Shown: positions 47,693 through 63,457 of the stretch, piece after piece
How positions within the stretch are numbered: the stretch's first letter is position 1
Layout: every line of letters starts with the position of its first letter
Origin: Hoeflea prorocentri
GTDB taxonomy: Bacteria > Pseudomonadota > Alphaproteobacteria > Rhizobiales > Rhizobiaceae
Length of the DNA: 64,000 bases
Assembly (NCBI RefSeq): GCF_027944115.1
Contig: NZ_JAPJZI010000001.1
Coordinates: forward strand, 682,001 to 746,000
Direction of reading: 5' to 3'
Position numbers and translations under genes: made by a program
Notes under the pieces: generated by a model
Databases searched by the model: none
What the model was told of the DNA's origin: nothing
The model's input: the letters and a program-made list of their open reading frames with translations, nothing else

Positions 47693-49126
47693 ATGGCCAA
47701 CAAGCTGAAAATCGGATTAATCCGCGCGTCCCTGCCAAGCTATTTTCCTGAAAAGCACAATGTGTGGGCAAGGGCGGAGAAGATGCTCGGTGACCTTTGC
47801 AACACCCATGAGGTCGAGTTTTTTGCTCCTAAGGACGTTCCGATCAACGGTCAGGATACGGTTCGCGTCCTGGAGCAATGCGCGGTCGAAGGCGTGGATT
47901 TTGTGCTGTTGCTGCATGGCGGGTTCACCATGGGCGATGTGGCGCGCACTGTCGCGGCTTCTGCGTTTCGCGCCGGATTCTGGTCGGTTCCCGAGCCGGT
48001 GCGCACGGGCGATGTGCAGCTAAACAATTTTGTGTCCCTGAACATGTCGCTCTCGATTGCCCGGCAGGTGCGCGATCTGAAGACCCGTCCGGTCACCTGG
48101 TACCATGGCGCCCCGGAAAGCCAGGCTCTGAAGGACCGGCTTTCAACGACGCTGCGCGCCCTCAAGGCGGCGAAAGCGCTTGTTGGCGCGCGTATCGGAA
48201 TGGTGGGCGGATTGGCCATGACCTTTTACAATATGGAGGTCTCCACCAACGTTCTCAGGCAGAGGCTTGGCGTCGAGGTGGCCAATCATGACATGCATGA
48301 ACTGACCGGCCGTATGAATGCGATCGATGACAGCCGGGTACTGGCTGAACTTGCAGCCCTGCGGGCGGCGGCAACTGTGGACGGTATCAGCGATTCGCAG
48401 ATGGAGATTACGGCCCGGTGTACTCTGGCGCTTCGCGATATTGCCGCCGATGGCGGGTATGAGGCGCTGACGCTCAGCGATTGGCCGGCACTGCAGGAAG
48501 ATCCCGGAATGCATCCGGGTGCGGCGTTTTCAATGCTGGAGGAAGTGGACGACATACCCGTCGTCTCGGAGGGCGATGTGCTCGGGGCGGTTACGCAACT
48601 TGTTGCGAAAGCGCTGTCGGGACGTGTCGGCTACCTTCTCGATATGACTGAGCCGGACCTCGATTCCGGACAGCTTCTGATGTGGCATGGCGGGGGCGGG
48701 CCGCTTTACCTGGCAGATGAGGCAGGAGCGCGATGGATCAACCATCCGATGATCGGTCGGGGGACGGAGCAAGGCCCGATCTATGGCGCAATCAGTGACC
48801 TGGTTTTTAAGGATGGGCCGGTCAGCGTTTTTCGTGTGGCGCGAGACGCTGGCGCGCTCTTTTCGATGAATGCGACGGTTTCGGGCCGCGACCCGTCAGG
48901 ATTCACCGGATGTCGCGGTTGGCTTGAGGATTTCACCATCGACGGAACGGATGCATCTCTCGAGGATGTTGTGGCAACCGTGATGGCGCACGGGCTGGAG
49001 CACCACTTTGTACTGGTGCCGGGCGACATTCGGGCGCCATTGGCTGAATTCGGTGCCTGGCTCAGTATGGATACGCTGTCCTATCGCCCGATGCGCGACC
49101 ATCTGGACATCAGAGACTTCAGCTGA
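47693..49126 (+). CDS. L-fucose/L-arabinose isomerase family protein
   Basis: A 477-residue protein of the L-fucose isomerase superfamily (aldose-ketose isomerases that use a Mn site). Family-like segments are VLLLHGGFTMGD (about 62-73), GMVGGLAMTFYNMEV, TARCTLAL and the C-terminal MAHGLEHHFVLVPGD with a likely metal-binding His pair. It is shorter than E. coli FucI (591). No operon partner downstream; it is convergent with the nucleoside hydrolase. Substrate unknown: a free pentose or deoxyhexose would fit. Confidence 0.78.
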   Translation: MANKLKIGLIRASLPSYFPEKHNVWARAEKMLGDLCNTHEVEFFAPKDVPINGQDTVRVLEQCAVEGVDFVLLLHGGFTMGDVARTVAASAFRAGFWSVPEPVRTGDVQLNNFVSLNMSLSIARQVRDLKTRPVTWYHGAPESQALKDRLSTTLRALKAAKALVGARIGMVGGLAMTFYNMEVSTNVLRQRLGVEVANHDMHELTGRMNAIDDSRVLAELAALRAAATVDGISDSQMEITARCTLALRDIAADGGYEALTLSDWPALQEDPGMHPGAAFSMLEEVDDIPVVSEGDVLGAVTQLVAKALSGRVGYLLDMTEPDLDSGQLLMWHGGGGPLYLADEAGARWINHPMIGRGTEQGPIYGAISDLVFKDGPVSVFRVARDAGALFSMNATVSGRDPSGFTGCRGWLEDFTIDGTDASLEDVVATVMAHGLEHHFVLVPGDIRAPLAEFGAWLSMDTLSYRPMRDHLDIRDFS

Positions 49127-49137
49127 TTGCCGCCGCT

Positions 49138-50226
49138 CTACTTCCCGGCGGCCTTTTCCAGCTTGCGAAAAAGGTCGAGGAATATCTCGTCGCGCTGCAC
49201 ATCATGCGCCTCGCGCATCATATGGCGCGACGGATCGTGCCGCCAATGCAGGCTCTCATCCAGAATGGGTGAGGTGGTCAGATGGGTCGGAACCCATTGG
49301 GGATCGACCAGCCAGGCAATGTTGATGATATCCCAGATCACCCATGTGCGTTGTTCGGTATTGGTCAGTGCAAACATGCGGTGAAGCGGGTTATGGGTAT
49401 AAAGGTGCCATAGATAATCGCCGATTGCTCCGCGTCCCTTGACGAACTTTTCCATTTCCGGATGAGAAATCTTGAGCTGGGCGCCGACGTGGTAGCCCGG
49501 CAGATAGATATGCGGGACACCGCAATCGAACAACAGCCGGGATGCGTGAAGGTCCTGAAAAAGGTTCAGCGACGGCCGGTTGCTGTGAGGTGCCGTGGAG
49601 GGGTAGGACGATGTCCAGATGACGATGACGCGCTCCATGATTTCCGGCGCGCGCAGCAACGCCGAGGCGATATTGGTCACGCAGCCCATGGCTGCGATAT
49701 AAAGCGGATCGTCGCCTGATTTTGCCAGGTCGATGATGGTGTCCACCGCCTCTGACGGCACCGGTTCGTCGGCAGCGCTCATGTAGCGGTCCGCACCTCG
49801 AAACACTTTTCCAGCCGACGGTATCGCCAGCTTTTCGTAGACGGTCAGGATCTCCTGATAGCTCAGTTCCATGCCTTCGGCGGGACCGACGAACTCGACG
49901 TCTTCGGCGCGTCGACCCTGTGCGTGCAGCCGGTGTATCCAGCCCTGAAAACCCCCGACGAGATGTTCGCTTTTCTGGGTTCCTTCCTCGATCGCGCGTT
50001 CGGCGGCGATGAGTTCGGGCCTGTGATGCGCAAAAGAAAACGGCTCGGCAGTCACGGCTTCAACCGTCATTTTTTCCGGTGAGAGCAGGGCCCAGGCGAT
50101 GGCGTACTGATCGTCTATTTCATTGGCGGCATCGGTATCGATCAACAACCGAACCGGTCGGTCGCCGCCCGGCAGGGCAAGCCGCTCGCGCATCAGATCT
50201 TCGGGCAGTTTTGAAAAGCGTGACAT
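49138..50226 (-). CDS. Nucleoside hydrolase family protein
   Basis: A 362-residue inosine-uridine-preferring nucleoside hydrolase-like enzyme. The Ca site is a variant: D30-T-D32...D38-D39 (DTDAANEIDD) instead of DTDPGxDD, and the later IAAMGCVTNIASAL segment is typical. It would cleave a ribonucleoside or other N-glycoside to base and free sugar. It follows the GntR gene by 10 bases on the same strand. The variant motif occurs in a subgroup, so the substrate may not be a standard nucleoside. Confidence 0.82.
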   Translation of the reverse strand: MSRFSKLPEDLMRERLALPGGDRPVRLLIDTDAANEIDDQYAIAWALLSPEKMTVEAVTAEPFSFAHHRPELIAAERAIEEGTQKSEHLVGGFQGWIHRLHAQGRRAEDVEFVGPAEGMELSYQEILTVYEKLAIPSAGKVFRGADRYMSAADEPVPSEAVDTIIDLAKSGDDPLYIAAMGCVTNIASALLRAPEIMERVIVIWTSSYPSTAPHSNRPSLNLFQDLHASRLLFDCGVPHIYLPGYHVGAQLKISHPEMEKFVKGRGAIGDYLWHLYTHNPLHRMFALTNTEQRTWVIWDIINIAWLVDPQWVPTHLTTSPILDESLHWRHDPSRHMMREAHDVQRDEIFLDLFRKLEKAAGK

Positions 50227-50236
50227 GATACGATCC

Positions 50237-50998
50237 TCAGACGTGCCGCGGCATGCGTGTTTGCGATGAAAGATTGAAGCTCACGGAGCCATTGCGGATG
50301 ACTTCCTCGTGGAAGACCGTCCGGTCTGCATCGTCAAAAGCCGAACAGGCCTGTTTCAGAAGAGGGGTGCCTTCCGCGACGCCCAGGCTGGAGGCGATAT
50401 CCGAGGTGGCGGCAATCGGGCTGATGTCCTCGCAGGCCGTCGACCATTCAAGATTGAAGCGGCCGCTCAGGATGCGCAGGATCGACTGTCCCGGTCCGGT
50501 TTCGGGAAAGTCTGCCGGCGTTGCATCCTTCATCAGATCGTAGGGGGCGTAGGTCAGAACCAGCATGCGCGGCTGGGCGTCAACAAGGCGCAGGCGGCTG
50601 ATGCGCATCAGCGGTCTTGACACAAGATCCTGGGGCAGTTCGGCCGCGGCGGGATCGTCCTGCTGCAGCAACTCCATGCCAAGGAAACGGGATGTCGGCT
50701 CACGTCCGGCACGCAGCATGGCATCGGTGAAGGATGTCAGGCAGGTGTCCGACGCCGGCGAAAGCGTGACCACGCGATATCCGGAGCCCTGTCGGCTTTC
50801 GATATAGCCGTCATGAACGAGCATATCGAGGGCGCGCCTTATCGTGACCCGGCTGACCTCAAAATGCTCGGCCAGTTCACCTTCGGTCGGCATGCGGCCG
50901 CCGACCGGGTACAGTCCGGCCTTCAGCCTTTGCAGCATGACCCTGTAGGCCCGTTCGTATTTCGGTGCGGCTTCGGTGGTGGCTGTTGTGTCAATCAT
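50237..50998 (-). CDS. GntR family regulator with UTRA domain
   Basis: A 253-residue HutC-type regulator. The winged helix lies at about 12-75 (MPTEGELAEHFEVSRVTIRRAL) and the UTRA effector domain at about 90-245. ATG 50998 is backed by GGAG. It is followed by the nucleoside hydrolase. Two copies of TTGTACATAC in the 52600-53000 gap are candidate sites. Confidence 0.88.
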   Translation of the reverse strand: MIDTTATTEAAPKYERAYRVMLQRLKAGLYPVGGRMPTEGELAEHFEVSRVTIRRALDMLVHDGYIESRQGSGYRVVTLSPASDTCLTSFTDAMLRAGREPTSRFLGMELLQQDDPAAAELPQDLVSRPLMRISRLRLVDAQPRMLVLTYAPYDLMKDATPADFPETGPGQSILRILSGRFNLEWSTACEDISPIAATSDIASSLGVAEGTPLLKQACSAFDDADRTVFHEEVIRNGSVSFNLSSQTRMPRHV

Positions 50999-51053
50999 AG
51001 TGGGCTCCACAGCATGTGTCGTTGCGAAGTATCGTGTGTCGAATTCTTGTCTG

Positions 51054-51434
51054 TCATGGCGTGTTCTCCTGCGTTAAAGGACGCAGCACAAGTGCGGGCA
51101 AACCGTCTTTTGCGGCGGCGATCGTGCCGCGGTTCATTTCTTCCGGAAAACTTTCAAGCCTGACGACGGTGGAGGTGTCAGCGCCGTCGAAGGTGACCAG
51201 CGCAAAGCTGCCATCAGCCCCTTCGGTGCGCCTTTCCAGTGTTGCGGTGCCGGGAAGGGGGGTCCATGTTCCCTCGGCGCAACCGCAGGTGCAGGTTCTC
51301 AACGGGACAAAACTCACCTTGCCGCATGCAGCGCAGGTTCTTGCCAGTGCGGAGCCGGCTTCAAGCGCCTCGACCCATGGCTGGAGCCAGCCGGGGGCCA
51401 GATTGTAGTCGAGCTGAAGACGGTGTGGAATCAT
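51054..51434 (-). CDS. Zn-ribbon/OB-fold protein (DUF35 family)
   Basis: A 126-residue protein with an N-terminal zinc ribbon (CAACG then CTCGC; four Cys) and an OB-fold, as in DUF35 acyl-CoA-associated proteins. Such proteins form complexes with thiolase-fold enzymes and dehydratases (for example with the steroid aldolase Ltp2). It overlaps the thiolase-like stop by ATGA, so the two surely work together. Confidence 0.85.
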   Translation of the reverse strand: MIPHRLQLDYNLAPGWLQPWVEALEAGSALARTCAACGKVSFVPLRTCTCGCAEGTWTPLPGTATLERRTEGADGSFALVTFDGADTSTVVRLESFPEEMNRGTIAAAKDGLPALVLRPLTQENTP

Positions 51435-52597
51435 TTTGCATCCCCTTGCGCCAGAAGGGTGACAGCCGCCGTCGTGCAAATGCCGCCATGGGTATCGGCC
51501 AACGCATAGGCCGGAGGTGTTTCCGGTTGCAGCCCGCTTTCATTGCGACCTTCAAGAAAGAGGGCGCAATTGGCTGTCTGGCCAACGCCGATCGCGCCGA
51601 CCGGAGCGCCGAGTCCCATCATGCCGCCGGAAAGATTGACGGGCAGGCTGCCGTCCGGGGCGAAACGACCATCCCGCAACTCTCGGCCAACGTCGTCGCT
51701 GATGCCCAGACCGTCAAGGGCCTGAAGCTGCGCACCGGCATAGGAATCATAGACCTCGGCAAGGCCGATATCCTGCGGCCTGATGCCGGACTGTTTGCAA
51801 GCGCGTTTCATTGAGACAGTCTTTGCTTCAAACCGTCCCTTTTGCGGCCGCGCACCGAGGTGAACGGCGTCGGTTGCCGCCCCGGTTCCGCAGATGCGCG
51901 GCGCGGTCCGGCGGCTCATCGGCGCCGCACCAGGACCGCACAGGATCAAAGCAGCGGCACCGTCGCTGAGCGGTGAACAATGAAGCCGGCGATAAGGAGA
52001 AGCAATCGCCGGGGACTGTTCGATTTCCTCTGTCGTGTGCGCGCGGCCAAGATGGGCCTTGTCGTTTTTCATGGCGTTTGCGCGGTTCTGGATTGTCACC
52101 GCGGCAAGATGCGTTGCGTCGAGCCCATTGTCGTCAGCAAAGATCTGCCAAGAAAGGGCATAGAGCGCGGTTGCGGTTACGCCCGTCATGCCATCGCTCC
52201 AGGCGTCGAAGGAATAGCCGTAGAGGTTGCGGATCGCATCGCCGGACAAGTGAGAGGCCGATGGATCGACGCCGACAATTGCAACGCGGGCAGCCTGGCC
52301 GGAAAGGATCGCGTGTACACCGGCGTGAACCGCCAGCTGACCTGACGCGCCGCCGCCTTCCACCCGCATCGTTGCCGCATGATCAAGACCGAAATCGGTC
52401 CCCAACACCGAGGCGGGATTGAGTTGAAGCGTGAAAAAATCGCTTTCCGAGGCAACAACCAGGAGATCGATGTCTGCGGTATCCATGCCGCTCATGTCAA
52501 GTGCGGCATCAAAGGCTTCGGCCGCCCAATCGCGAAAGGATGAGTTATCCTTGCGGCGGTTAAACGGGGTTTGCGCAGCTCCGGCGACAATCACCAT
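51431..52597 (-). CDS. Thiolase-fold protein lacking the catalytic Cys (aldolase-like?)
   Basis: A 388-residue SCP2/thiolase-superfamily protein. Conserved parts are VAGAAQTPF at the start, CSPLSDGAAALIL in the middle and GGMMGLGAPVGA near the C-terminus. The CxSG nucleophile position reads G83-A-S-G86 and the C-terminal GHPxGA is GAPVGA, so neither thiolase catalytic residue is in place. Together with the DUF35 partner this recalls Ltp2-type retro-aldolases, which are thiolase-fold enzymes without the Cys. Substrate unknown. The ATG at 52597 has only a weak ribosome site. Confidence 0.8.
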   Translation of the reverse strand: MVIVAGAAQTPFNRRKDNSSFRDWAAEAFDAALDMSGMDTADIDLLVVASESDFFTLQLNPASVLGTDFGLDHAATMRVEGGGASGQLAVHAGVHAILSGQAARVAIVGVDPSASHLSGDAIRNLYGYSFDAWSDGMTGVTATALYALSWQIFADDNGLDATHLAAVTIQNRANAMKNDKAHLGRAHTTEEIEQSPAIASPYRRLHCSPLSDGAAALILCGPGAAPMSRRTAPRICGTGAATDAVHLGARPQKGRFEAKTVSMKRACKQSGIRPQDIGLAEVYDSYAGAQLQALDGLGISDDVGRELRDGRFAPDGSLPVNLSGGMMGLGAPVGAIGVGQTANCALFLEGRNESGLQPETPPAYALADTHGGICTTAAVTLLAQGDAK

Positions 52598-52627
52598 ACC
52601 GGCAATTCCAATCCCTTTATGTCCAAT

Positions 52628-52637
52628 TTGTACATAC
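52628..52637. promoter_or_regulatory. TTGTACATAC motif, copy 1
   Basis: Ten-base motif 30 bp before the thiolase-like gene; an identical copy lies at 52972-52981 before the nucleoside phosphorylase. The TGTACA core is palindromic. Candidate site of the GntR/UTRA regulator at 50237. Confidence 0.45.
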
Positions 52638-52981: not shown

Positions 52982-53027
52982 GAATTTTTTTTGGAACTCC
53001 TGTAACGGTTCGGAAACGATCACCCCT

Positions 53028-53789
53028 ATGGCCATACTGGATTACTCGTCGGACATATGGCGTGAAGCGCTTGGCATAGGCGAGGGTGAAGAGCCCGCGG
53101 CGCTGATCCTCGAAGGTACGTGGTGGCGTGAGACGGCGACTGAAAACCGCCTTGGCAAACTGACCGATGTTAAGGAGCTGGCGTTTCCGGAGATGTATTC
53201 GGGCCTCTATGGCGATGTGCCGGTTGTCTATTGCTGCGCCTATGGCGCGGCGCGGGCGGTCGAGCCGGCCCATGTGTTTGCCCAGATGGGCACGCCTCTT
53301 TTGATCCAGCTTGGAACCTGTGGAACGCTCGATGTCGATGCGTCGACGGGGCAGGTGATCCTGCCCGAAGTCTGCGCGGCGAGAGACGGTGTATCCCAGT
53401 ATTATGGGGCCGCAGATACGGTTCGTACCGATCCAGCCTGGGTTGAGCGCGCCGAGCAGGTGCTGCACTCTTTCGACCGGCAAACCCAGCGCGCCTATCA
53501 TCTGACATGGCCGAGCCTGTTCGCCCAATCGGACGAAATGTGCGATGGTTGGGCAGCGGAGGGCTTGCTTTCCATTGACATGGAAACCTCCGCGGTCGTT
53601 GCGGTTGCGGACCGTTTCGGTTCAGCGGCGGTTTCGATGCTCTCTGTCTGGGATGCATTGCCGCACGGGCGGACGTTTCTGGACCCGCTGGAGCCCGAAG
53701 ACTTGAAAAGACTGAAAGATTCCAACGAGTTGATTTTCGATGCGGCGTTGTTACTTGCACAGGAGGTCCAGCAAAACCGATCCATCTAG
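53028..53789 (+). CDS. Nucleoside phosphorylase family protein
   Basis: A 253-residue member of the PNP/UDP phosphorylase family, which cleaves nucleosides with phosphate to base and sugar 1-phosphate. Typical segments are QLGTCGTLD (about 100-108) and the SIDMETSAVVAVA motif with the ribose-binding Met-Glu (about 180-192). ATG 53028 is chosen because the reading upstream has no family resemblance. First gene of the long plus-strand operon and 57 bases before the transporter genes. A uridine- or methylthioadenosine-type substrate cannot be decided. Confidence 0.82.
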   Translation: MAILDYSSDIWREALGIGEGEEPAALILEGTWWRETATENRLGKLTDVKELAFPEMYSGLYGDVPVVYCCAYGAARAVEPAHVFAQMGTPLLIQLGTCGTLDVDASTGQVILPEVCAARDGVSQYYGAADTVRTDPAWVERAEQVLHSFDRQTQRAYHLTWPSLFAQSDEMCDGWAAEGLLSIDMETSAVVAVADRFGSAAVSMLSVWDALPHGRTFLDPLEPEDLKRLKDSNELIFDAALLLAQEVQQNRSI

Positions 53790-53846
53790 GACATCAGGTC
53801 CCGGACTATCAACCAACTAACCTATTCAGTCAGTATGGGAGGAAAC

Positions 53847-55076
53847 ATGAGACATCTGGCAAAATGTGCATTGTTCGCATCCGCCGTCGCGTTCGCACCG
53901 CTTGCGCATGCGGATACAGCAGACGGTGAGTCGCTGATCGGCAAGCCGTGGGAGGAAGTCGTGGAGATGGCCCGCGGCGGAACCGTAAACTGGTTCCTGT
54001 GGGGCGGCTCCGACAATATCAACCGATACGTTTCGGAATATATCGGCGGTATTCTCAAGGATGAATATGACATCACGCTGAACCGGGTCGGTCTGTCCGA
54101 TACGGTTGAAGCCGTGAATATCGTCCTCGGCGAAGTCGAATCCGGCGTCACGGACAAGGGCTCCGTCGACATGATCTGGATTAACGGCGAGAACTTCCGC
54201 ACCATGAAACAGGGCGATCTTGCCTATTGCGGATATCCGGACACGCTGCCGAACAACAAGCTTGTCGACTGGAACAATCCTTCGATCGCCAACGACTTCG
54301 GCGTGCCGGTGGATGGCTGCGAGATTCCGTGGTCGAAAGCCCAGTTTGCATTCGCCTATGACACCGCGCGCACGGAAAATCCGCCGCGTTCGATCCCTGA
54401 ACTGCTTGAGTGGATCAAGGCCAACCCGGGATCTTTCACCTATCCTGCGCCGCCCGATTTCAATGGATCGGTGTTTGTGCGGCACGTATTCTACCACGCG
54501 GCGGGCGGTGTCGATAATCTGCTCGGCGCGTTCGACCAGGCCAAATATGACGCGGCGGCTGCCGAAACATGGCGCATCCTCAACGAGATCGAGCCCTATC
54601 TGTGGCGCGAGGGAAAAACCTACCCCACGTCGATCAACGCTCTGGAGCAGCTTTTTGCGAACTCCGAAGTCGATCTCTACTTCAACTATGAGCCGGCAGG
54701 TGTCGGGATCAATATCGACAACGGTACATTCCCGCCCACGGCCAAGGGTTACGGCCTGACGGACGGAACGATCGGTAACACCAACTACACGATCATCCCG
54801 ATCAATTCGCCCAACAAGGCAGCCGCGCTGGTGTTGCAGAACGTGCTGCTTTCCGGTGAAGCCCAGTATGAAAAGGCCAAGCCGGACGTGTGGGGAACTA
54901 GCCCCGCCATCGAGGTGTCGCGCACGAGTGACGAGGTGCAGAAACAGTTCGCCTCACTCAAGAAGCACCCGGCGGTTGTCCCGGCTTCGGAATTGTCCAA
55001 GGCCGCTTTGCCTGAGCTTCAGGCGGACTGGATCACTGCCATCGAAAAAGGCTGGATCGAGAACGTCGGCCAATAG
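53847..55076 (+). CDS. ABC transporter substrate-binding protein (PotD/YnjB type)
   Basis: A 409-residue periplasmic binding protein with a signal peptide (about 1-23, cleavage after AHA). The body, GGTVNWFLWGGSDNINRYV, PDFNGSVFVRHVFYH and FNYEPAGVG, resembles YnjB-like and polyamine/thiamine-type binding proteins. GGGAGGAAAC before ATG 53847 decides the start over an ATG 12 bases upstream. Ligand unknown; the downstream sugar enzymes suggest a nucleoside or sugar derivative. Confidence 0.86.
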   Translation: MRHLAKCALFASAVAFAPLAHADTADGESLIGKPWEEVVEMARGGTVNWFLWGGSDNINRYVSEYIGGILKDEYDITLNRVGLSDTVEAVNIVLGEVESGVTDKGSVDMIWINGENFRTMKQGDLAYCGYPDTLPNNKLVDWNNPSIANDFGVPVDGCEIPWSKAQFAFAYDTARTENPPRSIPELLEWIKANPGSFTYPAPPDFNGSVFVRHVFYHAAGGVDNLLGAFDQAKYDAAAAETWRILNEIEPYLWREGKTYPTSINALEQLFANSEVDLYFNYEPAGVGINIDNGTFPPTAKGYGLTDGTIGNTNYTIIPINSPNKAAALVLQNVLLSGEAQYEKAKPDVWGTSPAIEVSRTSDEVQKQFASLKKHPAVVPASELSKAALPELQADWITAIEKGWIENVGQ

Positions 55077-55156: not shown

Positions 55157-56014
55157 ATGTCGGATCGCGTGAAAATAGTGCTGCTCCTGGCACCGGCCAT
55201 GATCATTATCGGCGTTCTGTTTTTCGGCGGTCTGGTGATTGGGCTGATGCGCAGCTTCAGCTATATGCCGATCATCGGTCTGACAGAGCCGAATTTCGAC
55301 GCCTATATTTCCATCTTTACCAGCCGGGAGTTCTATCTCTCCTTTCTGCTGACCTTCTATATTGCCTTTGTCTCGACGTTCATCTCGTCGGTACTGGCAA
55401 TCGGGGCCGCTCTGCTTTTGCGGCGACAGTTCATCGGTCGCGCCATCGTCAATTTCCTGTTTCAGTTGAACCTGACGGTGCCGCATCTGGTGGGTGCAAT
55501 CGGCATTCTTTATCTCTTTTCGCAGTCGGGAAGTTTTGCCCGGCTTGCCGCTGAATGGGGTATGATCGCAAGACCCAGCGAGTTCCCGGCTCTCGTGTTC
55601 GATCCCTATGCGATCGGCATCATCCTGCAATATGTCTGGAAAGAGATCCCGTTCATCGGCGTCATCGTTCTGGCCAATATGCAGGCGCTTGGAGAAGACT
55701 ATGAAAGCGTGGCGCGCTCCCTTGGCGCAAACCGCTGGCAGGCCTTCATCCATGTGCTTTTGCCGCTGATCTTCCCGGGCGTGCTTTCCGCCTCGGTGAT
55801 CGTCTTTGCCTTTATCTTCGGCGCCTATGAGATTCCGGCGCTGCTCGGCGCCAATTATCCCGCCGCGTTGCCGGTGCTTGCCTATCGCAAATACACGGAT
55901 GTGGACCTTGCAGCGCGGCCCGAGGCGATGGCGATGGCCATCGTTATCGCACTGCTCAGCGCGGTCATGATCTTTCTTTACGTCCGCTACGCGCGGCGCC
56001 GGGTCAGGAGCTGA
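55157..56014 (+). CDS. ABC transporter permease (PotB-type)
   Basis: A 285-residue permease with six helices. The ATPase-docking EAA loop is YESVARSLGANRWQAFIHVLLP (about 190-211). Family of polyamine/iron/thiamine-type importers. Two bases separate its stop from the next permease start. Pairs with the 56017 protein. Confidence 0.9.
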   Translation: MSDRVKIVLLLAPAMIIIGVLFFGGLVIGLMRSFSYMPIIGLTEPNFDAYISIFTSREFYLSFLLTFYIAFVSTFISSVLAIGAALLLRRQFIGRAIVNFLFQLNLTVPHLVGAIGILYLFSQSGSFARLAAEWGMIARPSEFPALVFDPYAIGIILQYVWKEIPFIGVIVLANMQALGEDYESVARSLGANRWQAFIHVLLPLIFPGVLSASVIVFAFIFGAYEIPALLGANYPAALPVLAYRKYTDVDLAARPEAMAMAIVIALLSAVMIFLYVRYARRRVRS

Positions 56015-56016
56015 CA

Positions 56017-56841
56017 ATGGTCGGACGCGAAAGCATTTCGATGAAAGGGTTCCGGTTTCTGACCGGAGCAGTGCTCATCACCTGGCTTATTCTGCCGCTC
56101 ATCCCGCTGGCGATCTGGTCGTTTGCAAGAGGCTGGTTCTTTCCGAGCCTTTTGCCGAAACAGTGGTCGTTGCAGGCCTGGGAATACGCCTTTTCAGATA
56201 CGGCGGGGGTTCTTGACAGCCTGTGGATCACCATTGGTATCGCGCTTGCGGCCACGGTGCTGTCGATCATCGTTGGCGTGCCGGCCGGACGTGCACTTGG
56301 TCTCTACCGGTTTCGCGGCAAAGAGATAGTCGAGTTGATTATTCTGGCGCCGACAATCGTTCCGGGGATCGCTGTAGCGCTCGGCCTTCACAGCGTTTTC
56401 ATCGGGCTTGGGCTGAACAACACGGTGTCGGGCGTTATTCTCGTCCATCTCATTCCGACACTGCCCTACATGGTGTTGGTAATGGCGGGCATTTTCTCCA
56501 ACTATGACCCGTCTTTCGAGGCGCAGGCGCGCAGTCTCGGGGCATCGGCCTTCAAGACCTTCTGGTATGTCACATTTCCGGCAATCCTGCCGGGCATCAT
56601 CGTCGGCGGCCTGTTTGCGTTCCTCGTATCGTGGAGCCAGTACATCCTGACTCTGCTCATCGGTGGCGGACGGGTGGTGACGCTGCCCTTGCTTCTCTTC
56701 AATTTCGCAACCTCGGGGCGCAACGACATCACCGGGGCCATCGGCATGATCTACATCCTGCCCGGTATCATTATTTTGCTTTTGACCGCTCGGCATCTCT
56801 CCGGTCGCAGTGGCGCTGTCGGGGGATTTGGACGGATATGA
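56017..56841 (+). CDS. ABC transporter permease (PotC-type)
   Basis: A 274-residue second permease with six helices and the EAA loop FEAQARSLGASAFKTFWYVTFP (about 168-189). AGGAG lies 5 bases before the start. Its stop overlaps the ATPase start (ATGA). Confidence 0.9.
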   Translation: MVGRESISMKGFRFLTGAVLITWLILPLIPLAIWSFARGWFFPSLLPKQWSLQAWEYAFSDTAGVLDSLWITIGIALAATVLSIIVGVPAGRALGLYRFRGKEIVELIILAPTIVPGIAVALGLHSVFIGLGLNNTVSGVILVHLIPTLPYMVLVMAGIFSNYDPSFEAQARSLGASAFKTFWYVTFPAILPGIIVGGLFAFLVSWSQYILTLLIGGGRVVTLPLLLFNFATSGRNDITGAIGMIYILPGIIILLLTARHLSGRSGAVGGFGRI

Positions 56842-57881
56842 CGCATGTTTCCATCAAGGATCTGACCAAGGTCTATCCGGGAGCAACGGAGCCATCGCTG
56901 GACCAGCTGTCGCTGGAAATCGCCAGCGGCGAATTGACGGCACTGCTGGGGCCCTCGGGTTGCGGCAAGACGACGACGATGAAGATGATCGCGGGCCTGT
57001 TGGCGCCGACTTCGGGTGATGTCGCTTTTGATGGCCGGTCGATCCTCAATGACAAGCCGGAACATCGCGGCGTGGTCATGGTATTCCAGAACTATCTGCT
57101 GTTTCCCTATATGAGCGTTGCGGACAATGTCGGTTTCGGTCTCAAAATGCGCAAGGTCGACAAGGCGGAAATCAGCCGGCGCGTGGCCGAGATGCTCGAC
57201 CTTGTCAAACTTCCCGATCTCGGCAGCCGCCGCCCGAGCGAACTGTCGGGCGGGCAGCAGCAGCGCGTTGCGCTTGCCCGGGCGCTGATCGTGCAGCCCA
57301 ATGTCTTGCTGCTTGACGAGCCGCTTTCCAATCTTGATGCGCATCTGCGCTTCGAAATGCGCGACCTGATCCGCTCGCTGCAGCAGGAGATGGGTATCAC
57401 AACGATCTTTGTCACCCATGATCAGGAAGAGGCGGTGGTGCTCGCCGACAAGGTGGCGCTGATCCTGAATGGCAGGCTGAAACAATATGACGATGCGGAC
57501 GTGTTCTACAAACGCCCCATCGACGAGGCGACGGCACGGTTTTTTGGCGGGCAGAACTTCATCGAGGGCGATTCGGACGGTTCGACGTTCACCAGTTCGT
57601 TCGGTTCCGTGGCGCTGCCGGAAGGCGTTCACAAGGGCAAGGGAAAACTGACCTTCAGACCTGAAAATGTGCGTATCGGGACGGAGCTTGGGAGTGAAAA
57701 CGTGTTTCACGGCACGCTGGAAGACAAGCTCTACATGGGCACGCAGACCCGCCTGAAAATGCGCATCGGCGACGAGCGGATCGACATCATCTCGAACCCG
57801 AACGAGGCCGAGGGCATGGAACCAGGACAGGACATTGCGGTGAGCCTGCCGCCGGCGAGCCTGTGGGTCCTGTCGTCATGA
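56838..57881 (+). CDS. ABC transporter ATP-binding protein (PotA-type)
   Basis: A 347-residue ATPase with Walker A GPSGCGKTT (about 38-46), Q-loop VFQNYLLFPYM (normal Gln), signature LSGGQQQR, Walker B LLLDEPLSNLD and switch His VTHDQEE, then a TOBE domain. Coupled to the permease by ATGA; followed 10 bases later by the epimerase. It powers the importer encoded just upstream. Confidence 0.93.
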   Translation: MTHVSIKDLTKVYPGATEPSLDQLSLEIASGELTALLGPSGCGKTTTMKMIAGLLAPTSGDVAFDGRSILNDKPEHRGVVMVFQNYLLFPYMSVADNVGFGLKMRKVDKAEISRRVAEMLDLVKLPDLGSRRPSELSGGQQQRVALARALIVQPNVLLLDEPLSNLDAHLRFEMRDLIRSLQQEMGITTIFVTHDQEEAVVLADKVALILNGRLKQYDDADVFYKRPIDEATARFFGGQNFIEGDSDGSTFTSSFGSVALPEGVHKGKGKLTFRPENVRIGTELGSENVFHGTLEDKLYMGTQTRLKMRIGDERIDIISNPNEAEGMEPGQDIAVSLPPASLWVLSS

Positions 57882-57891
57882 GGAGACAGTC

Positions 57892-58728
57892 ATGAAATAT
57901 AGCGTGCATGCGGGCCTCTGGATGGCGCAATGGACGGACGAGATCACCCCGATCCTGCGCATTGTCGCGGATCTGGGATATGACGGTGTTGAGGTGTCGC
58001 TTCTCGGCATGAGCGATGAGAAGGCCGAAGCCCTTGGTTCCGCCGTGCGCGATCACGGGCTGGAGATTACGTGCTCCGACGGTCTCGGGCCGGAAACGGA
58101 TATAACGTCCGACGATGAAGCTGTTCGTGCGGCGGGCCTGAAGCATCTCGAATGGGCGATTACAACGACAGCAAAGGTTGGCGCGCGGGGATTGGCCGGT
58201 GTCGTCTATGCGCCCTGGGGCGTGTTCGATCCGGCAAACAAAGCCAAACGCGCAGCCCGTTCCGCCGAGGCATTCGCCGCGGTTCATCCGGTGCTGGAAG
58301 CACATGATGTGACGCTTGGTATCGAGGCGATCAACCGGTTCGAGACCGATCTGGTCAACACCGCTTCGGAAGCCGTGGAGATGGCAACGGCGTCCGGTTC
58401 GTCGCGCGTTGGCGTGCTGCTTGATACATTCCACCTCAATATCGAGGAAAAGGATGTCAGAGGTGCGATTGCCGATGCCCGCGACAAGCTTGTCCATTTC
58501 CACGTCTCGGACAATGACAGGGGCGTGCCCGGATCCGGCCATGTGCCGTGGAGCGACGTCAAAGCCGGCCTGAACGACGCCGGCTACGATGGCTGGATTG
58601 TTGCCGAAATGTTCGTCATCGCCGGAAACCCGGCAAGCGCCGATCTCAATATCTGGCGCAATATCGAACCGGAAGCGACCGATGCGGCTCGGCGCGCGCT
58701 GGCATTTATGAAAGAGACATTTTCATGA
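57892..58728 (+). CDS. Ketose 3-epimerase (tagatose/psicose 3-epimerase family)
   Basis: A 278-residue TIM-barrel sugar isomerase/epimerase. Metal ligands can be placed as E145 (GIEAINRFET), D178 (LLDTFH), H204 (VHFHVSDNDRG) and E239 (VAEMF); all are exactly 7 lower than Glu152/Asp185/His211/Glu246 of Pseudomonas tagatose 3-epimerase. It should epimerise a free ketose at C3. GAGGAG precedes the ATG. Its stop overlaps the DhaL start. Erythrulose or pentulose epimerase (OtnI/LtnI-like) is equally possible. Confidence 0.85.
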   Translation: MKYSVHAGLWMAQWTDEITPILRIVADLGYDGVEVSLLGMSDEKAEALGSAVRDHGLEITCSDGLGPETDITSDDEAVRAAGLKHLEWAITTTAKVGARGLAGVVYAPWGVFDPANKAKRAARSAEAFAAVHPVLEAHDVTLGIEAINRFETDLVNTASEAVEMATASGSSRVGVLLDTFHLNIEEKDVRGAIADARDKLVHFHVSDNDRGVPGSGHVPWSDVKAGLNDAGYDGWIVAEMFVIAGNPASADLNIWRNIEPEATDAARRALAFMKETFS

Positions 58729-59255
58729 ACGGCGATTTCCTCAAACGGGCCCAGAGCCGTTTCGAGAGCCTCGAGGGCTCATTGAACAGTCTGGACGCGG
58801 CAATCGGGGATGGAGATCACGGGTCGACGATCCTGAAGGGATTAAGGGCTGCGGCTGCTTCCCCCGAAGATGCGGCCAAGGCGTTTCGGGTGGCCGCGGG
58901 CGGCGCGTCCGGGGCGCTATTCGGGCAGATTATCGCAGCGCTGGATGCGTTCGACAAGGGCGACATGGAACTTGGTCCGGCGCTGGCCAGGGCAGCGGGT
59001 CGTGTCACCCAGCTGGGTCAGGCAAAGGCTGGCGACAAGACGATGCTGGATGCATTGATGCCGGCATCGCTGGCGGGCAATGAACCGGCAGCGGCGGCCC
59101 ATGCAGCGCGGGCCGGAGCAGAGGCCACGCGCGACATGCCGGCAAAGCGTGGCAGGGCGAAATATGTCGAGGGCGCCGGTGTCGGTCATCTGGATCCGGG
59201 CGCCGTCTCCGTTGCCGAACTTCTGGAAGAATTTGCAAAGCCGAGCGGAGCGTGA
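58725..59255 (+). CDS. dhaL: Dihydroxyacetone kinase-type nucleotide subunit (DhaL)
   Basis: A 176-residue DhaL. The Mg-ADP/ATP site has D24, D29 and D31 (LDAAIGDGDHG), 6 lower than Asp30/35/37 of E. coli DhaL. GGASGALFG, KAGDKTMLDAL and GHLDPGAVSV are further family motifs. It supplies the nucleotide-binding half of a ketose kinase together with DhaK downstream. No DhaM phosphotransferase subunit is present, so ATP is the likely donor. Confidence 0.9.
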   Translation: MNGDFLKRAQSRFESLEGSLNSLDAAIGDGDHGSTILKGLRAAAASPEDAAKAFRVAAGGASGALFGQIIAALDAFDKGDMELGPALARAAGRVTQLGQAKAGDKTMLDALMPASLAGNEPAAAAHAARAGAEATRDMPAKRGRAKYVEGAGVGHLDPGAVSVAELLEEFAKPSGA

Positions 59256-59257
59256 CG

Positions 59258-60277
59258 ATGAAGAAGCTGTTCAATAGCAAGGAAAGCATGGTCGACGACA
59301 TGATCGACGGCTTTGTCGCGGCCTTTCCGGGCGTCGTGGCGCGGGGCGATCACCCACGTGTGGTGCGAAAGGCGGGTCCGAAAACGGGCGACAAAAAGGT
59401 CTCGCTCCTGATCGGCAATGGCAGCGGCCATGAACCGATTGCCATGGGGTTTGTCGGTCCCGGTCTTCTTGATGCCAATGTGGTTGGCGATGTCTTCGCC
59501 GCGCCATCGGCCGACCTCATTCTTGAAGGCATCCGGGACGTCACCGGCGAAGCGGGGTCGGTGCTGTTGATCTCGCGCCATGAGGGTGATGTCATCAACG
59601 GCAATGCCGCTGTGATGATGGCCGAGGATGAGGGGCTGAACGTGCGGCCCTTGCTCATGTATGACGATATTTCGTCGGCGCCCAAGGGCGAAGAGGATGA
59701 ACGGCGCGGCGCGCCGGGCACCATGTTTATCTACAAGATACTGGGCGCAGCCGCCGAGACGGGCATGAGCCTCGATGATCTTGTTGCGTTGGGTGAGGAT
59801 GTGCGGTCGCGAACGCGGACGCTGGGTGCAGCGGTTCGCTCGGGTATCTCGCCGCTTACGGGCGACGTTATGTTTTCGCTGCCGGAGGACGAAATCTATA
59901 TCGGCATTGGGGTCCACGGCGAGCCGGGCGTGGCGCGGCGCAAGACCGGCCCCGTCAAAGATCTTGTGGCCTTTATGATGGAGAAAATCCTTGAGGACCG
60001 GCCATTGGAAGCGGGGACCGAGACCGTTGTGATGATCAACGGTTCCGGCGGAACGACCCAGATGGAACTCCTGACCATCTATAGCGAGGTCGAGAAATAT
60101 CTCTCGAAAGTCGGCATCCAACCGGTTTCTCCCATGATCGGCTCCTTTGTCACCACCCAGGAAACAGCCGGCTTCTCAATATCTGTCTTCACACCGACAT
60201 CGGAGATGCTCTCGCTCTGGCGCGCGCCTCAGCACTCGCCTTATTTTCCGGTTATCGGGCTTGGGGAAGGGGGCTGA
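59258..60277 (+). CDS. dhaK: Dihydroxyacetone kinase-type substrate subunit (DhaK)
   Basis: A 339-residue DhaK. H58 (GNGSGHEP), D111 (HEGDVINGN) and H220 (GIGVHGEPG) each lie 2 residues after His56, Asp109 and His218 of E. coli DhaK. The covalent substrate-binding His is therefore kept. ATG 59258 with GGAG upstream is preferred; a GTG at 59252 overlaps the dhaL stop. In this context it probably phosphorylates a larger ketose than dihydroxyacetone, as apulose and erythrulose kinases of the family do. Confidence 0.92.
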   Translation: MKKLFNSKESMVDDMIDGFVAAFPGVVARGDHPRVVRKAGPKTGDKKVSLLIGNGSGHEPIAMGFVGPGLLDANVVGDVFAAPSADLILEGIRDVTGEAGSVLLISRHEGDVINGNAAVMMAEDEGLNVRPLLMYDDISSAPKGEEDERRGAPGTMFIYKILGAAAETGMSLDDLVALGEDVRSRTRTLGAAVRSGISPLTGDVMFSLPEDEIYIGIGVHGEPGVARRKTGPVKDLVAFMMEKILEDRPLEAGTETVVMINGSGGTTQMELLTIYSEVEKYLSKVGIQPVSPMIGSFVTTQETAGFSISVFTPTSEMLSLWRAPQHSPYFPVIGLGEGG

Positions 60278-60279
60278 TC

Positions 60280-61185
60280 ATGCCGCAGCTTCCGGCAGCC
60301 ATACACGGGGTGGCGGTTGACGCCGGCAGCGGGCTTGCGACCGCCATTCGCACCGCGCGCGAAGACCGGGCGCAACCGGACGACCTTTTGACTTTCAAGC
60401 GCAATGTGCTGAAAGCCCTTGGGCCAGATGCAACAACAGTGCTTGTTGACGCTCAGTGCGGGTCTGATCTGTTGCAGGATTACCCGGATGGCTGCGCACC
60501 CATGATCGCCTTCGAGGCCGATGTCTATCATATTTCGGACGATGACCGTATTACGGTCCTGCCGGACCATCTGTCTGTATCCGATTTTCCAGGAATGGGC
60601 GTCAAGCAACTGAAATTCTTTATGTATTATGCCCCTGACGATGCGGACGAACTGAATGCAAGGAAGCTGGACATTGTGGCAGGCATTGGTGATGCCTGCG
60701 CATCAAACGGCGTCCGCTACCTGGTTGAGCCGCTGGTATACCATCCGGCCATAGAGGCGGGATCGGTTGAATTTGCACGGCTAAAGCCAGACCTTGTAAG
60801 GCGGGCGACCAAGGCCTTTGCTGATCCCCGCCTGAAAGCCGATGTCCTGAAGGTTGAGGTGCCGGTGGACCTGCGATTTGTCGAGGGCTTTGGCGAACCG
60901 GCAATGTCGCGCGCCGAGGCGCTTGACGCTTTTCGCATGGCTGCGGAACCGGCCGGTGGGCGGGATCTTGTTTATCTCAGCGCCGGGGTCGCGTTTGAAT
61001 TTTTCGAGGCCTCACTGCGGCTGGCCCGCGAAGCCGGTGTCGATTTTTCGGGGTTCATGTGCGGCCGGGCCATATGGTCGGACGCGGTCGGGGTCTTTGG
61101 CGCGCATGGCGAGGATGCGCTCAAGACCTGGTTGGAGGAAACGGGACGCGAAAGGCTGTTGCGCCTGATCGCGGCCCTCAACTAG
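60280..61185 (+). CDS. Class I aldolase, LacD/tagatose-bisphosphate type
   Basis: A 301-residue aldolase of the LacD family, which also contains sulfofructose-phosphate aldolases. The Schiff-base Lys is K191 in ADVLKVEVPV; E150 (LVEPL) and K112 (LKFFMYY) match other active-site positions, and YLSAGV and FMCGRAIW are family segments. It cleaves a ketose phosphate into DHAP and an aldehyde. It starts 3 bases after dhaK. The exact ketose is unknown. Confidence 0.87.
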   Translation: MPQLPAAIHGVAVDAGSGLATAIRTAREDRAQPDDLLTFKRNVLKALGPDATTVLVDAQCGSDLLQDYPDGCAPMIAFEADVYHISDDDRITVLPDHLSVSDFPGMGVKQLKFFMYYAPDDADELNARKLDIVAGIGDACASNGVRYLVEPLVYHPAIEAGSVEFARLKPDLVRRATKAFADPRLKADVLKVEVPVDLRFVEGFGEPAMSRAEALDAFRMAAEPAGGRDLVYLSAGVAFEFFEASLRLAREAGVDFSGFMCGRAIWSDAVGVFGAHGEDALKTWLEETGRERLLRLIAALN

Positions 61186-61197
61186 AGGCATAAAACG

Positions 61198-61959
61198 ATG
61201 CTGGACAACAAGGTTGCCATTATCACCGGCGGTTCAAGCGGCAATGGCCGCGCGATTGCCAAGAAGTTTGTCGAAAACGGTGCCCGGGTCATCGTCGCCG
61301 ATCTCAGTGAAGAGGTGCGTGAAGGCGGCGAACCGACCGTTGCCATGATTGACCGTTTCAAGCCCGGCGCCGCGAAGTTCATGACATGCGACGTCAGCAA
61401 GACGGATGATCTGGAAGCCGTGGTTCAAGCCGCTGAGGATTGGGGCGGGCTGGACATTATGGTCAACAATGCCGGTATCCTCATCAAGCAGCCCATACTG
61501 GAGGCGACCGAGGACATCTTTGACAAGATGGTCGATGTGAACATCAAAGGCGTGTATTTCGGTTCGCAAGCTGCCGCGCGGGCCATGGCCAAACGCAAGT
61601 CCGGTGTCATCATCAATATGTGTTCGGTTGCCGGTATGCGCGGAACGGGCGGCTTCAGCCATTACAATATGACAAAGGGCGCCGTTCGGCTCCTGACCTA
61701 TTCGCTGGCGGATGAGCTCGGCCCAATGGGAATTCGCGTCAACAATGTCAATCCGGGCATTATGCGCACGCAGATGAATGTCGAGGACGATCCGGTGATC
61801 GGCACCGATACCGGAGAAGGCTATCTGGATATTATTCCGGCGCGCCGGTGGGGTGAACCGGAGGAGGTGGCCGACACCTGCCTTTATCTGGCGTCCGATC
61901 TTTCGACCTATGTAACCGGCACGTCACTGATCGTTGATGGCGGGTTGTTGAGGATTTGA
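61198..61959 (+). CDS. SDR family oxidoreductase (polyol/sugar type)
   Basis: A 253-residue short-chain dehydrogenase with TGGSSGNG (10-17; Asn replaces the usual Ile), NNAG (90-93), S143, Y156 and K160. AGAGG precedes the ATG. It closes the long operon and may oxidise a polyol or aldose to the ketose used by the epimerase. Convergent with the aldehyde dehydrogenase. Confidence 0.9.
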   Translation: MLDNKVAIITGGSSGNGRAIAKKFVENGARVIVADLSEEVREGGEPTVAMIDRFKPGAAKFMTCDVSKTDDLEAVVQAAEDWGGLDIMVNNAGILIKQPILEATEDIFDKMVDVNIKGVYFGSQAAARAMAKRKSGVIINMCSVAGMRGTGGFSHYNMTKGAVRLLTYSLADELGPMGIRVNNVNPGIMRTQMNVEDDPVIGTDTGEGYLDIIPARRWGEPEEVADTCLYLASDLSTYVTGTSLIVDGGLLRI

Positions 61960-61984
61960 TTGGCACCTGCTGGTGTCCCCTGCT

Positions 61985-63457
61985 TCAAGCGACCCAGACG
62001 CTTTTGGTCTGTGAATAAAGCGCGATTGCCTCGCGGCCCATCTCGCGCCCGTAACCCGATTGCTTCATGCCGCCGAAGGGTGATGCCGCGTCCGTTTCAC
62101 CCCAGCAATTGACCCAGATCGTGCCGGCCTGAAGGCGTCCTGCCATCCGCCGCACACGGGTCACATCCTGCGACCATAGACCCGCTGCAAGGCCGTAATC
62201 CGTGTCGTTTGCGCGCTTCAGCACATCTTCTTCATCGTCGAATTTCAGCACCGAGATGACCGGCCCGAAAATCTCGTCCCGGGCAAGCTTCATATCGTCT
62301 GTGACATCGGCGACAATCGTCGGACGGATGAACCAGCCCTCGGACGTGTCGCGCTTGCCCCCTGTCAGTACGGCTGCCCCGTCCGAACGGCCGCCATCGA
62401 CATAGCCGAGGATCATGTTCATCTGCCGTTCGCTGATGACGGGTCCAAGGTCATTGGGCGGGTCGTCAAACCCCGGACCAACCTGGAGACCGTCAGCAAT
62501 CTCCGTCAGGCCCGAGACCACCTGATCATGTATGGAAGAATGGACATAAAGCCGGCAACCGGCCGTGCAGCTTTGACCATTGTTGCCGAAATTTGCCCAG
62601 AAAGCGCCGGGGATCGCCTTCTCAAGGTCGGCGTCTGCAAAGATGATGTTGGCCGCCTTGCCGCCCAGTTCCAGCGAAACCTTCTTCAGATTTCCCTTTG
62701 AGGCCACGACGATCTGCCTGCCGGTGCGGGTGCTGCCGGTAAAGCCGATCTTGGCGATACGCGTATGGGCGGCAAGCGCTGCACCGGCCTCTGCGCCCAA
62801 CCCCGGCACGACATTGAGCACACCCTCGGGCAGTCCGGCTTCAAGAGCGAGGTCGGCGAGGTAAAGCGCTGAGAGCGGTGTTTCTTCCGACGGTTTCAGG
62901 ATCACGGTGTTTCCCGCCGCGAGTGCCGGCGCAAGCTTCCATGCAGCCATGAGCAAGGGGTAGTTCCAGGGCGTGATCAGCCCGCACACGCCGACCGGTT
63001 CAATCAGGGTGTAGTTCAGCCGGTCCGGAATATTCACAGGAATCGTTGCGCCCTCGATCTTGTCGGGCCAGCCGGCAAAATAGCGTATATGCCGTGCCGA
63101 CCACATCGCATCGACATCGCGCGCGACATTCACAGGCTTGCCATTGTCGAGCGCGTCGAGTTGCCCGAATATGTCGGCCCGTTCCTCGATCAGTTCGGCA
63201 AACCGCCACAGGACCTTGCTGCGGGCATCCGGTCCCATCGTTCGCCAGGGGCCGGTCTCGAATGCCCGTGACGCTGCCTCAACAGCCAGATCCACCTCAG
63301 TCTTGCCAGCCCGGGCGACTTCGGTGAGGACTTTGCCGTTCGAGGGGTTGATAACCTCGATGCTGCCATCCGTCTCCACCTGCCGCGACCCGATCCGCAA
63401 CCCCTGCTTCGAGGTAATGAAAGAGGCAACATCCTTGTTTAGTGAAATGGTGCCCAT
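61985..63457 (-). CDS. Aldehyde dehydrogenase family protein
   Basis: A 490-residue aldehyde dehydrogenase, betaine-aldehyde-type. Key residues are N165 (TPWNYP), K188 (ILKPSE), E263 (LELGGK) and C297 (NGQSCTAG). It is in the same direction as, and 4 bases after, the acyl-CoA synthetase. It could oxidise the aldehyde from the LacD-type aldolase or feed the synthetase with an acid. Confidence 0.92.
   Translation of the reverse strand: MGTISLNKDVASFITSKQGLRIGSRQVETDGSIEVINPSNGKVLTEVARAGKTEVDLAVEAASRAFETGPWRTMGPDARSKVLWRFAELIEERADIFGQLDALDNGKPVNVARDVDAMWSARHIRYFAGWPDKIEGATIPVNIPDRLNYTLIEPVGVCGLITPWNYPLLMAAWKLAPALAAGNTVILKPSEETPLSALYLADLALEAGLPEGVLNVVPGLGAEAGAALAAHTRIAKIGFTGSTRTGRQIVVASKGNLKKVSLELGGKAANIIFADADLEKAIPGAFWANFGNNGQSCTAGCRLYVHSSIHDQVVSGLTEIADGLQVGPGFDDPPNDLGPVISERQMNMILGYVDGGRSDGAAVLTGGKRDTSEGWFIRPTIVADVTDDMKLARDEIFGPVISVLKFDDEEDVLKRANDTDYGLAAGLWSQDVTRVRRMAGRLQAGTIWVNCWGETDAASPFGGMKQSGYGREMGREAIALYSQTKSVWVA

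Follow-up and report, generated by a model that had tools for sequence, protein, structure and literature searches.

What does a bacterium break down with a nucleoside hydrolase (NH), a set of sugar enzymes, and an importer, when their genes stand next to those of an acyl-coenzyme A (CoA) ligase and a thiolase-fold protein without the catalytic cysteine? The question is raised by a 64,000-nucleotide stretch of the Hoeflea prorocentri genome (contig NZ_JAPJZI010000001.1, positions 682,001 to 746,000; hereafter, the window). We found that this locus represents a cluster of about 15 genes that is held together in many marine bacteria. With a probability of about 0.5, the cluster would serve the catabolism of a furanoside, either nucleoside-like or an O-riboside, whose sugar lacks the normal C5 hydroxyl; we infer the reactions, their order, and the substrate from the protein sequences. 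The preliminary description of this DNA had proposed that a sugar freed from a nucleoside-like compound is isomerized, epimerized, phosphorylated at its end, and split into dihydroxyacetone phosphate (DHAP) and a short aldehyde, which is then oxidized. Its observation was confirmed and enlarged, and its interpretation is partly supported. All the genes it had named were found in place by Pfam and NCBIfam scans, and the complete gene set reads as follows (ABC, ATP-binding cassette; SDR, short-chain dehydrogenase/reductase; ALDH, aldehyde dehydrogenase; AMP, adenosine monophosphate; ORF, open reading frame).

47693..49126, plus strand: IsoF, SftI/L-fucose-isomerase-type aldose-ketose isomerase (NCBIfam NF048012, 4.7e-30, below cut-off; no Pfam match)
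49138..50226, minus strand: NH-family furanosidase with an altered O5' site (PF01156, 2.9e-16)
50237..51010, minus strand: GntR/UTRA regulator (PF07702, PF00392)
51054..51479 (ORF extent; true start probably about 51437), minus strand: zinc-ribbon/DUF35-type partner (conserved Cys pattern)
51431..52597, minus strand: thiolase-fold, Cys-less, Sal/Ltp2-like putative CoA lyase (fold; motifs EGGGASG, YD[S/A][Y/F], GAP, DTHGG)
53028..53789, plus strand: PNP_UDP_1 phosphorylase/nucleosidase, optional (PF01048, 5.3e-19)
53835..55076, plus strand: YnjB-type ABC substrate-binding protein (NF008633/PRK11622, 2.3e-140)
55157..56014, plus strand: ABC permease 1 (family scan; 39/39 flanked loci)
56017..56841, plus strand: ABC permease 2 (family scan; 39/39 flanked loci)
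56838..57881, plus strand: PotA-type ABC ATPase (family scan; start ATG at 56838)
57892..58728, plus strand: ketose 3-epimerase, a psicose/tagatose 3-epimerase-type TIM barrel (NF051856, 5.5e-65, below cut-off)
58725..59255, plus strand: DhaL-type ATP-binding kinase subunit (PF02734, Dak2, 1.5e-27; GDGDHG conserved)
59252..60277, plus strand: DhaK-type ketose-binding kinase subunit (PF02733, Dak1, 9.3e-95; His of HGEPG conserved)
60280..61185, plus strand: LacD-type class I aldolase (NF009498/PRK12858, DeoC/LacD, 3.6e-68, over cut-off)
61198..61959, plus strand: SDR dehydrogenase, optional (PF13561)
61985..63457, minus strand: ALDH, optional (StyD, 1.9e-159; betaine-aldehyde dehydrogenase, 2.3e-155; both below cut-off)
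63462..63998, minus strand: AMP-forming acyl-CoA ligase, C-terminal part (PF00501, 1.4e-68; best NCBIfam match of acetate-CoA ligase type, below cut-off)

The window genome comprises 5.04 Mb on two contigs. The plus-strand genes from the phosphorylase to the SDR are spaced by -4 to 80 bp and thus likely form one operon, as the preliminary description had it. The lyase, zinc ribbon, GntR, and NH genes make up a minus-strand run, the ligase and ALDH genes form a minus-strand pair 4 bp apart, and the isomerase gene is the sole member of its plus-strand run. The ligase gene extends past the window end; the complete gene (L076:963-2627) encodes 554 amino acids, and a divergent major facilitator superfamily (MFS) gene comes after it.

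We compared this arrangement with 50 loci, 47 of which came from one genome-contig scan, while three were on plasmids found first. These three marine plasmids were retrieved by a tblastn search with the aldolase (54-60% identity); below them, the next among the matches listed were LacD proteins at about 36% identity or less. The block common to all three holds genes for an MFS transporter, the thiolase-fold protein, the zinc ribbon, the AMP ligase, the epimerase, DhaL, DhaK, LacD, the GntR regulator, the isomerase, the ABC importer, and the NH, and in two of the three an ALDH gene follows LacD. By title, nearly all of the 47 scan loci belong to Alphaproteobacteria, including one SAR116, the exceptions being two Granulosicoccaceae or Granulosicoccus, one metagenome-assembled genome labeled Flavobacteriales, and one "bacterium." The carriers fall mostly into genera that we take to be marine. 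The Flavobacteriales-labeled genome (L049) has a cluster otherwise seen in Proteobacteria, owing to either misbinning or transfer. Mapping by tblastn distinguished three arrangements: type 1, window-like; type 2, plasmid-like; and type 3, found in L027-L029 and L046, where an extra gene separates the permease and ATPase genes. The extra gene of L028 (4512-6476) matches arabinofuranosidase models, and the same holds by similarity or position for L027, L029, and probably L046.

To count the members, we scored a gene as present when a tblastn match of at least 60 bits and at least 30% identity lay anywhere in the locus, and we treated a locus as flanked when at least 9 kb extended to either side of LacD, which left 39 loci and excluded 11 shorter ones. 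Because L024 and L054 come from the same species and several loci from near relatives, the counts do not represent independent events. The NH, GntR, isomerase, four ABC, DhaL, DhaK, and LacD genes were each present in 39/39 flanked loci and the epimerase gene in 38/39. The preliminary description had allowed that its genes might fail to co-occur in relatives; this recurrence removes that objection and indicates that the grouping is more than chance. The lyase, zinc ribbon, and ligase genes, which that description had missed together with GntR, were each found in 36/39; the lyase misses are L027 and L028, where the module lies elsewhere, and L045, where lyase and partner lie just beyond the fetched piece. 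Three genes that it had counted as members are present in the window but are optional: ALDH (23/39), the phosphorylase (13/39), and the SDR (12/39). Thus, sugar release as such stood, with the NH as its core enzyme, whereas the phosphorylase lost its place in the core. Across all 50 loci, LacD was found in 50, the isomerase in 48, the epimerase in 47, ALDH in 25, and the SDR in 15; the isomerase beside the ABC genes in L027, L028, L029, and L046 is only 32-35% identical to that of the window.

The set also stays complete while its parts move, which is good evidence that it represents one pathway. We searched for the lyase in 12 genomes, the window's and 11 with a truncated, lacking, or unusual cluster piece, and found it in 11; G538 was the only miss. 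The lyase is carried by a different contig in G199, G201, and G206, and it lies at a distance of about 1 Mb in G200. The second locus of G206 carries NH (69% identity), isomerase (60%), GntR (57%), ligase, zinc ribbon, and lyase genes, and the first locus is without these; the second locus of G200 carries lyase, zinc ribbon, ligase, and isomerase (58%). Within the window genus, LacD occurs in 8/8 genomes with three cluster versions, the other seven being 54-79% identical, while a sample of the family had LacD in 8/297 genomes. No DhaK relative turned up when viral contigs were scanned by pattern. The smaller contig carries another LacD-type gene, a distant one at 31% (G000:C2:199140-199883, L023).

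The enzyme that would open the pathway is changed at a single position. The NH scores 60.4 bits against PF01156 (cut-off 34.2), its predicted structure has a mean confidence (pLDDT) of 91, and the best 50 PDB folds among the matches listed are NHs or riboside hydrolases. D30, D32, D38, D39, N221, and D299 are invariant (34/34), with calcium-binding or nucleophile roles assigned by analogy with PMC2898832. According to an excerpt of that paper, Asn158 and Glu164 of RihA hold the ribose O5'. In a profile alignment to solved NHs, Ser219 of the cluster enzyme takes the position of the O5'-binding Glu. Serine occupies it in 45/45 cluster NHs (PSLN in 43, ASLN in 2), while relatives outside the cluster keep Glu-Phe-Asn in 6/6 cases, these being six of eight non-cluster plasmid records with two further Ensifer records left out. 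The replacement points to a sugar that has no ordinary 5'-OH and makes an ordinary nucleoside unlikely as the substrate. Ordinary nucleoside salvage is thus not our leading reading, given also that the phosphorylase is optional. In G228, a FloR/CmlA-family efflux MFS gene (L113:5023-6231; over the family cut-off) lies beside the cluster NH gene.

A missing 5'-OH would likewise account for phosphorylation at the ketose end of the sugar and for the GSGL that the aldolase has where Enterococcus faecalis LacD has RGAL. The isomerase residues E293, D317, H437, and H438 are invariant (21/21 aligned) and are presumably metal ligands as in fucose isomerases. The nearest PDB chains of the epimerase are D-psicose/D-tagatose 3-epimerases. 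DAK-type kinases act on apulose and erythrulose; in these and, as proposed, in the cluster, DhaK/DhaL-type subunits phosphorylate ketoses, but the cluster has DhaL and DhaK as separate proteins, paired with a 3-epimerase and LacD. The DhaK gene is the only Dak1 match in the window genome, and because no DhaM gene was seen in the cluster, DhaKL is probably ATP-dependent. A plain dihydroxyacetone kinase operon would leave the isomerase, the epimerase, and LacD unexplained. The aldolase shares the class I family PF01791, the Schiff-base Lys, and the CGRA motif with LacD and the sulfofructose phosphate aldolase YihT, and its Schiff-base-type Lys191 is kept in 51/51 sequences. However, the DQRGAL of Enterococcus faecalis LacD, a segment (RGAL/DQRG) that we take to bind the far phosphate, corresponds to D-x-GSGL in the cluster aldolase, with GSGL in 51/51 sequences. 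The score of 177.8 bits against the lacD equivalog TIGR01232 (cut-off 432.2) led us to reject a true tagatose-bisphosphate aldolase. The window phosphorylase (53028-53789), a candidate phosphorylase or hydrolase, also weakly matches the model of the hopanoid-associated phosphorylase HpnG.

Next to the sugar enzymes, the cluster encodes a "thiolase" that is probably not a thiolase. Aligned with solved thiolases, the nucleophilic Cys of EAACASG is replaced by Gly and the His of GHP by Ala; the Cys is absent and GHP reads GAP in 41/41 cluster sequences, on which ground an ordinary thiolase step was rejected. The HDCF-type motif reads YD[S/A][Y/F] in 40/41 sequences, with one X, and DTHGG in the C-terminal region is invariant (28/28 aligned). 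Excerpts of PMC12329534 describe Sal, in which the nucleophilic Cys is lost (Gly) and the motif is YDCY, and Ltp2, with YDHF, as CoA-thioester retro-aldolases with DUF35 partners. The cluster lyase resembles Sal/Shy and Ltp2/ChsH2 in its thiolase fold, the replaced Cys (Gly also in Sal), the YD motif, and a ChsH2-type zinc-ribbon partner. It differs in the third motif residue (S/A versus C or H), the invariant DTHGG, its sugar rather than steroid context, and an identity of 22-24% in Foldseek alignments. In the predicted fold (pLDDT 84.5), the thiolases 7yvy and 6esq are nearest, whereas ranks 13-14 go to Sal (9myr) and Ltp2 (6ok1). The zinc ribbon of L025 matches PF12172 (zf-ChsH2) over the cut-off; that of the window matched no Pfam or NCBIfam model. 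The zinc ribbon gene adjoins the thiolase-fold gene in 40/40 loci having the latter, out of 50 overall. By analogy, we read the protein as a lyase of the Sal/Ltp2 kind whose active site is a variant of its own, rather than as a proven member. An MFS gene was identified beside the lyase gene in 34/40 lyase loci, the others being L047, L049, L050, L058, L064, and L067. In L058 (3039-4217) and L064 (3052-4224), the place of the MFS gene, immediately upstream of the lyase gene, is taken by a gene for an FAD_binding_3 protein.

Taken together, the families fit hydrolysis, isomerization, 3-epimerization, terminal phosphorylation, and aldol cleavage to DHAP, the part of the earlier proposal that our assignments bear out. 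The furanoside would be imported by the ABC transporter, and its furanosidic bond hydrolyzed by the altered NH, joined in some relatives by the arabinofuranosidase-like enzyme. IsoF would turn the aldose into a ketose, which would be 3-epimerized and then phosphorylated by DhaKL at C1, since C5 could not be phosphorylated under this proposal. The LacD-type aldolase would cleave the product to DHAP and an aldehyde of the type X-CH2-CHO, and ALDH would oxidize the latter to an acid. The earlier account had ended the pathway here, which the conserved ligase, Cys-less protein, and zinc ribbon contradict: the AMP ligase would form an acyl-CoA, from which the lyase and its zinc ribbon would release acetyl-CoA (or glycolyl-CoA) from X, and X would be exported or exchanged via the MFS often encoded beside the lyase. 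The ligase and Cys-less lyase are the end of the proposed pathway and its most informative part.

Several observations weigh against this furanoside route. Loss of the O5' ligand also fits sugars without an exocyclic C5, such as apiose, a 5-modified ribose by itself does not call for a 3-epimerase, and the regiochemistry of DhaKL is not readable from sequence. A phosphorylase making a sugar 1-phosphate would bypass isomerase and kinase. ALDH is absent from 16/39 clusters, where the oxidation must be served elsewhere. By sequence and fold, the lyase is nearer to thiolases, and its third motif residue is S/A rather than the Cys of Sal or the His of Ltp2, so that retro-aldolase chemistry is only an analogy.

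Excerpts of PMC6079011 and PMC10986504 outline the DHAP shunt of 5-deoxyribose salvage, in which a kinase, an isomerase, and the aldolase DrdA convert a 5-modified pentose into DHAP and an aldehyde. The 5-modified pentose proposed for the cluster would likewise end as DHAP and an aldehyde. However, isomerization in the cluster probably precedes the kinase step. The kinase is of the DAK type, the isomerase of the SftI/fucose type, and the aldolase of the class I LacD type, and the cluster adds a 3-epimerase and then a CoA ligase and lyase. The families that we take to define the shunt are MtnA/DrdI for the isomerase, DrdA for the aldolase, and MtnK/DrdK for the kinase; Pfam and NCBIfam scans placed the cluster proteins instead in the DAK, SftI-type, and LacD-type families. 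Thus, the system appears to work like the DHAP shunt, without being a member of it by its enzymes, in line with the shunt-like logic with unrelated enzymes suggested in the preliminary description. The titles and abstract openings covered by our literature search contained no description of this cluster or route. If the furanoside route is correct, unrelated enzymes would make up a DHAP-shunt-like pathway that continues with a thiolase-fold lyase of a new active-site variant. This pathway would be present in every one of the eight genomes searched in one genus and have a scattered distribution among marine genera.

The boldest candidates for the substrate are arsenosugars, suggested because two clusters have arsenic genes next to them and others encode a transporter related to ArsK. 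As a special case of furanoside catabolism, a 5-deoxy-5-dimethylarsinoyl-riboside would be converted to dimethylarsinate and acetyl-CoA. LacD would give DHAP and dimethylarsinoyl-acetaldehyde, ALDH dimethylarsinoylacetate, and the ligase its CoA ester; the lyase would then split the As-C bond, with As=O replacing the beta carbonyl/hydroxyl. No gene set for the catabolism of arsenosugars by bacteria would precede this one, which would comprise an O5'-blind ribofuranosidase, isomerase, 3-epimerase, DhaKL, LacD, and a C-As-cleaving Cys-less lyase; we regard the proposal as tentative and, on balance, doubtful. Arsenosugars are 5-deoxy-5-dimethylarsinoyl-ribofuranosides, and PMC6656958 lists among their metabolites dimethylarsinate (DMA), dimethylarsenoethanol, and dimethylarsenoacetic acid, compounds of the type that this route would be expected to yield. 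The titles and abstract openings searched, together with passages of PMC7177459, PMC12608789, and PMC6656958, described no genes for arsenosugar breakdown. If correct, the proposal would assign genes to a step in marine arsenic cycling for which the end products are already known, and the question would become testable in cultured strains.

The genomic evidence on arsenic points both ways. A minus-strand arsR-arsC-aquaporin gene run (45924..47468; family scans), which we list as a neighbor rather than a member of the system, is divergent from the window isomerase gene at a distance of 224 bp; it resembles rhizobial ars operons. L072 has an ArsJ operon starting 0.7 kb after the cluster, with ArsJ (508 bits, over cut-off), GAPDH, and an ArsR-ArsC fusion. 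However, homologs of the window ArsR, ArsC, and aquaporin were found in 0/50 fetched loci, which ruled out ars genes as constant neighbors. ArsC-family genes are near-universal (75 matches in 44/46 genomes), ArsJ scores over its cut-off in 23/46 genomes and adjoins the cluster only in that of L072, and P is about 0.16 for one such neighbor to lie within 5 kb by chance in another genome, so that adjacency is weak on its own. We also rejected an ArsP-family (PF03773) permease as arsenic support: the family occurs in 30/46 genomes, and the G228 copy, 1.9 kb off the cluster and beside the FloR-like efflux gene, is nearer to Cu/Zn efflux models.

The transporters gave a similarly divided picture. 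For the one type-2 cluster MFS that was scanned, ArsK was the sole NCBIfam match at 1e-8 (102 bits), and 16 of the 33 ArsK-model matches in 46 genomes are type-2 cluster MFS proteins (52-107 bits). One further match (163 bits) lies directly upstream of the G201 lyase gene; another (210 bits) is about 9 kb from LacD on the L047 contig, with a peptidase-like gene between. In contrast, none of the 46 genomes has a match reaching the 400-bit cut-off of the model. The G201 protein also matches lactate and oxalate/formate transporter models, so the ArsK likeness may only mark that MFS branch, and the window's own MFS matches these two models and not ArsK at 1e-8. Sulfatase genes, which would presumably fit sulfated arsenosugars, lie beside or inside five loci: L049 (15982-17598) and L054 (1407-2987), both scanned, L024, annotated as arylsulfatase, and L048 and L050, identified by similarity. 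Judging from titles, some carriers, which are mostly of presumably marine genera, are named after corals or algae. Last, we know of no precedent for C-As cleavage by a thiolase fold.

The cluster could instead combine two parallel branches. One would take an ordinary or rare pentose to DHAP and glycolaldehyde, and in the other, a hydroxy-acid aglycone from the same compound, entering through the ABC or MFS transporter, would be broken down by the ligase-lyase module. The ability of the lyase-zinc ribbon-ligase module to sit away from the sugar genes would agree with this, as would the MFS beside the lyase in 34/40 lyase loci. Where present, however, ALDH ties both halves together by its place next to LacD (type 2) or the ligase (type 1), and to our knowledge no glycosyl hydroxy-acid of the required kind has been described; we consider this explanation unlikely. 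Apiofuranoside catabolism, in which apiose would be converted to apionate and apionyl-CoA, the lyase would cleave the tertiary beta-alcohol to glycolyl-CoA and dihydroxyacetone, and DhaKL would yield DHAP, appears very unlikely. Apiose has no C5 hydroxymethyl, a group for which the NH seems to have lost its binding site, DhaKL would receive its classic substrate, and the arabinofuranosidase-like gene of L027-L029, and probably L046, would find a use; Ltp2 acts on a C17-hydroxylated side chain, according to excerpts of PMC12329534. But this route leaves no role for the isomerase (48/50), the 3-epimerase (47/50), and LacD (50/50), and the oxidoreductases it requires are the optional ones (ALDH 25/50, SDR 15/50). 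An oxidized 5'-methylthioadenosine or related 5'-thio nucleoside is also very unlikely as the substrate, because, although 5'-deoxynucleosides are DHAP-shunt substrates according to an excerpt of PMC10986504 and some clusters contain a phosphorylase, that enzyme is optional, no sulfur-specific genes appeared among the families scanned, and the lyase step has no obvious chemistry on a thioether.

Adenosylhopane, futalosine, gonyol, and carnitine were considered as substrates and dropped on chemical grounds. Just upstream in the window, at positions 43262-45917, lies a uxaC/uxuB-like pair encoding a glucuronate isomerase and a polyol/uronate dehydrogenase.

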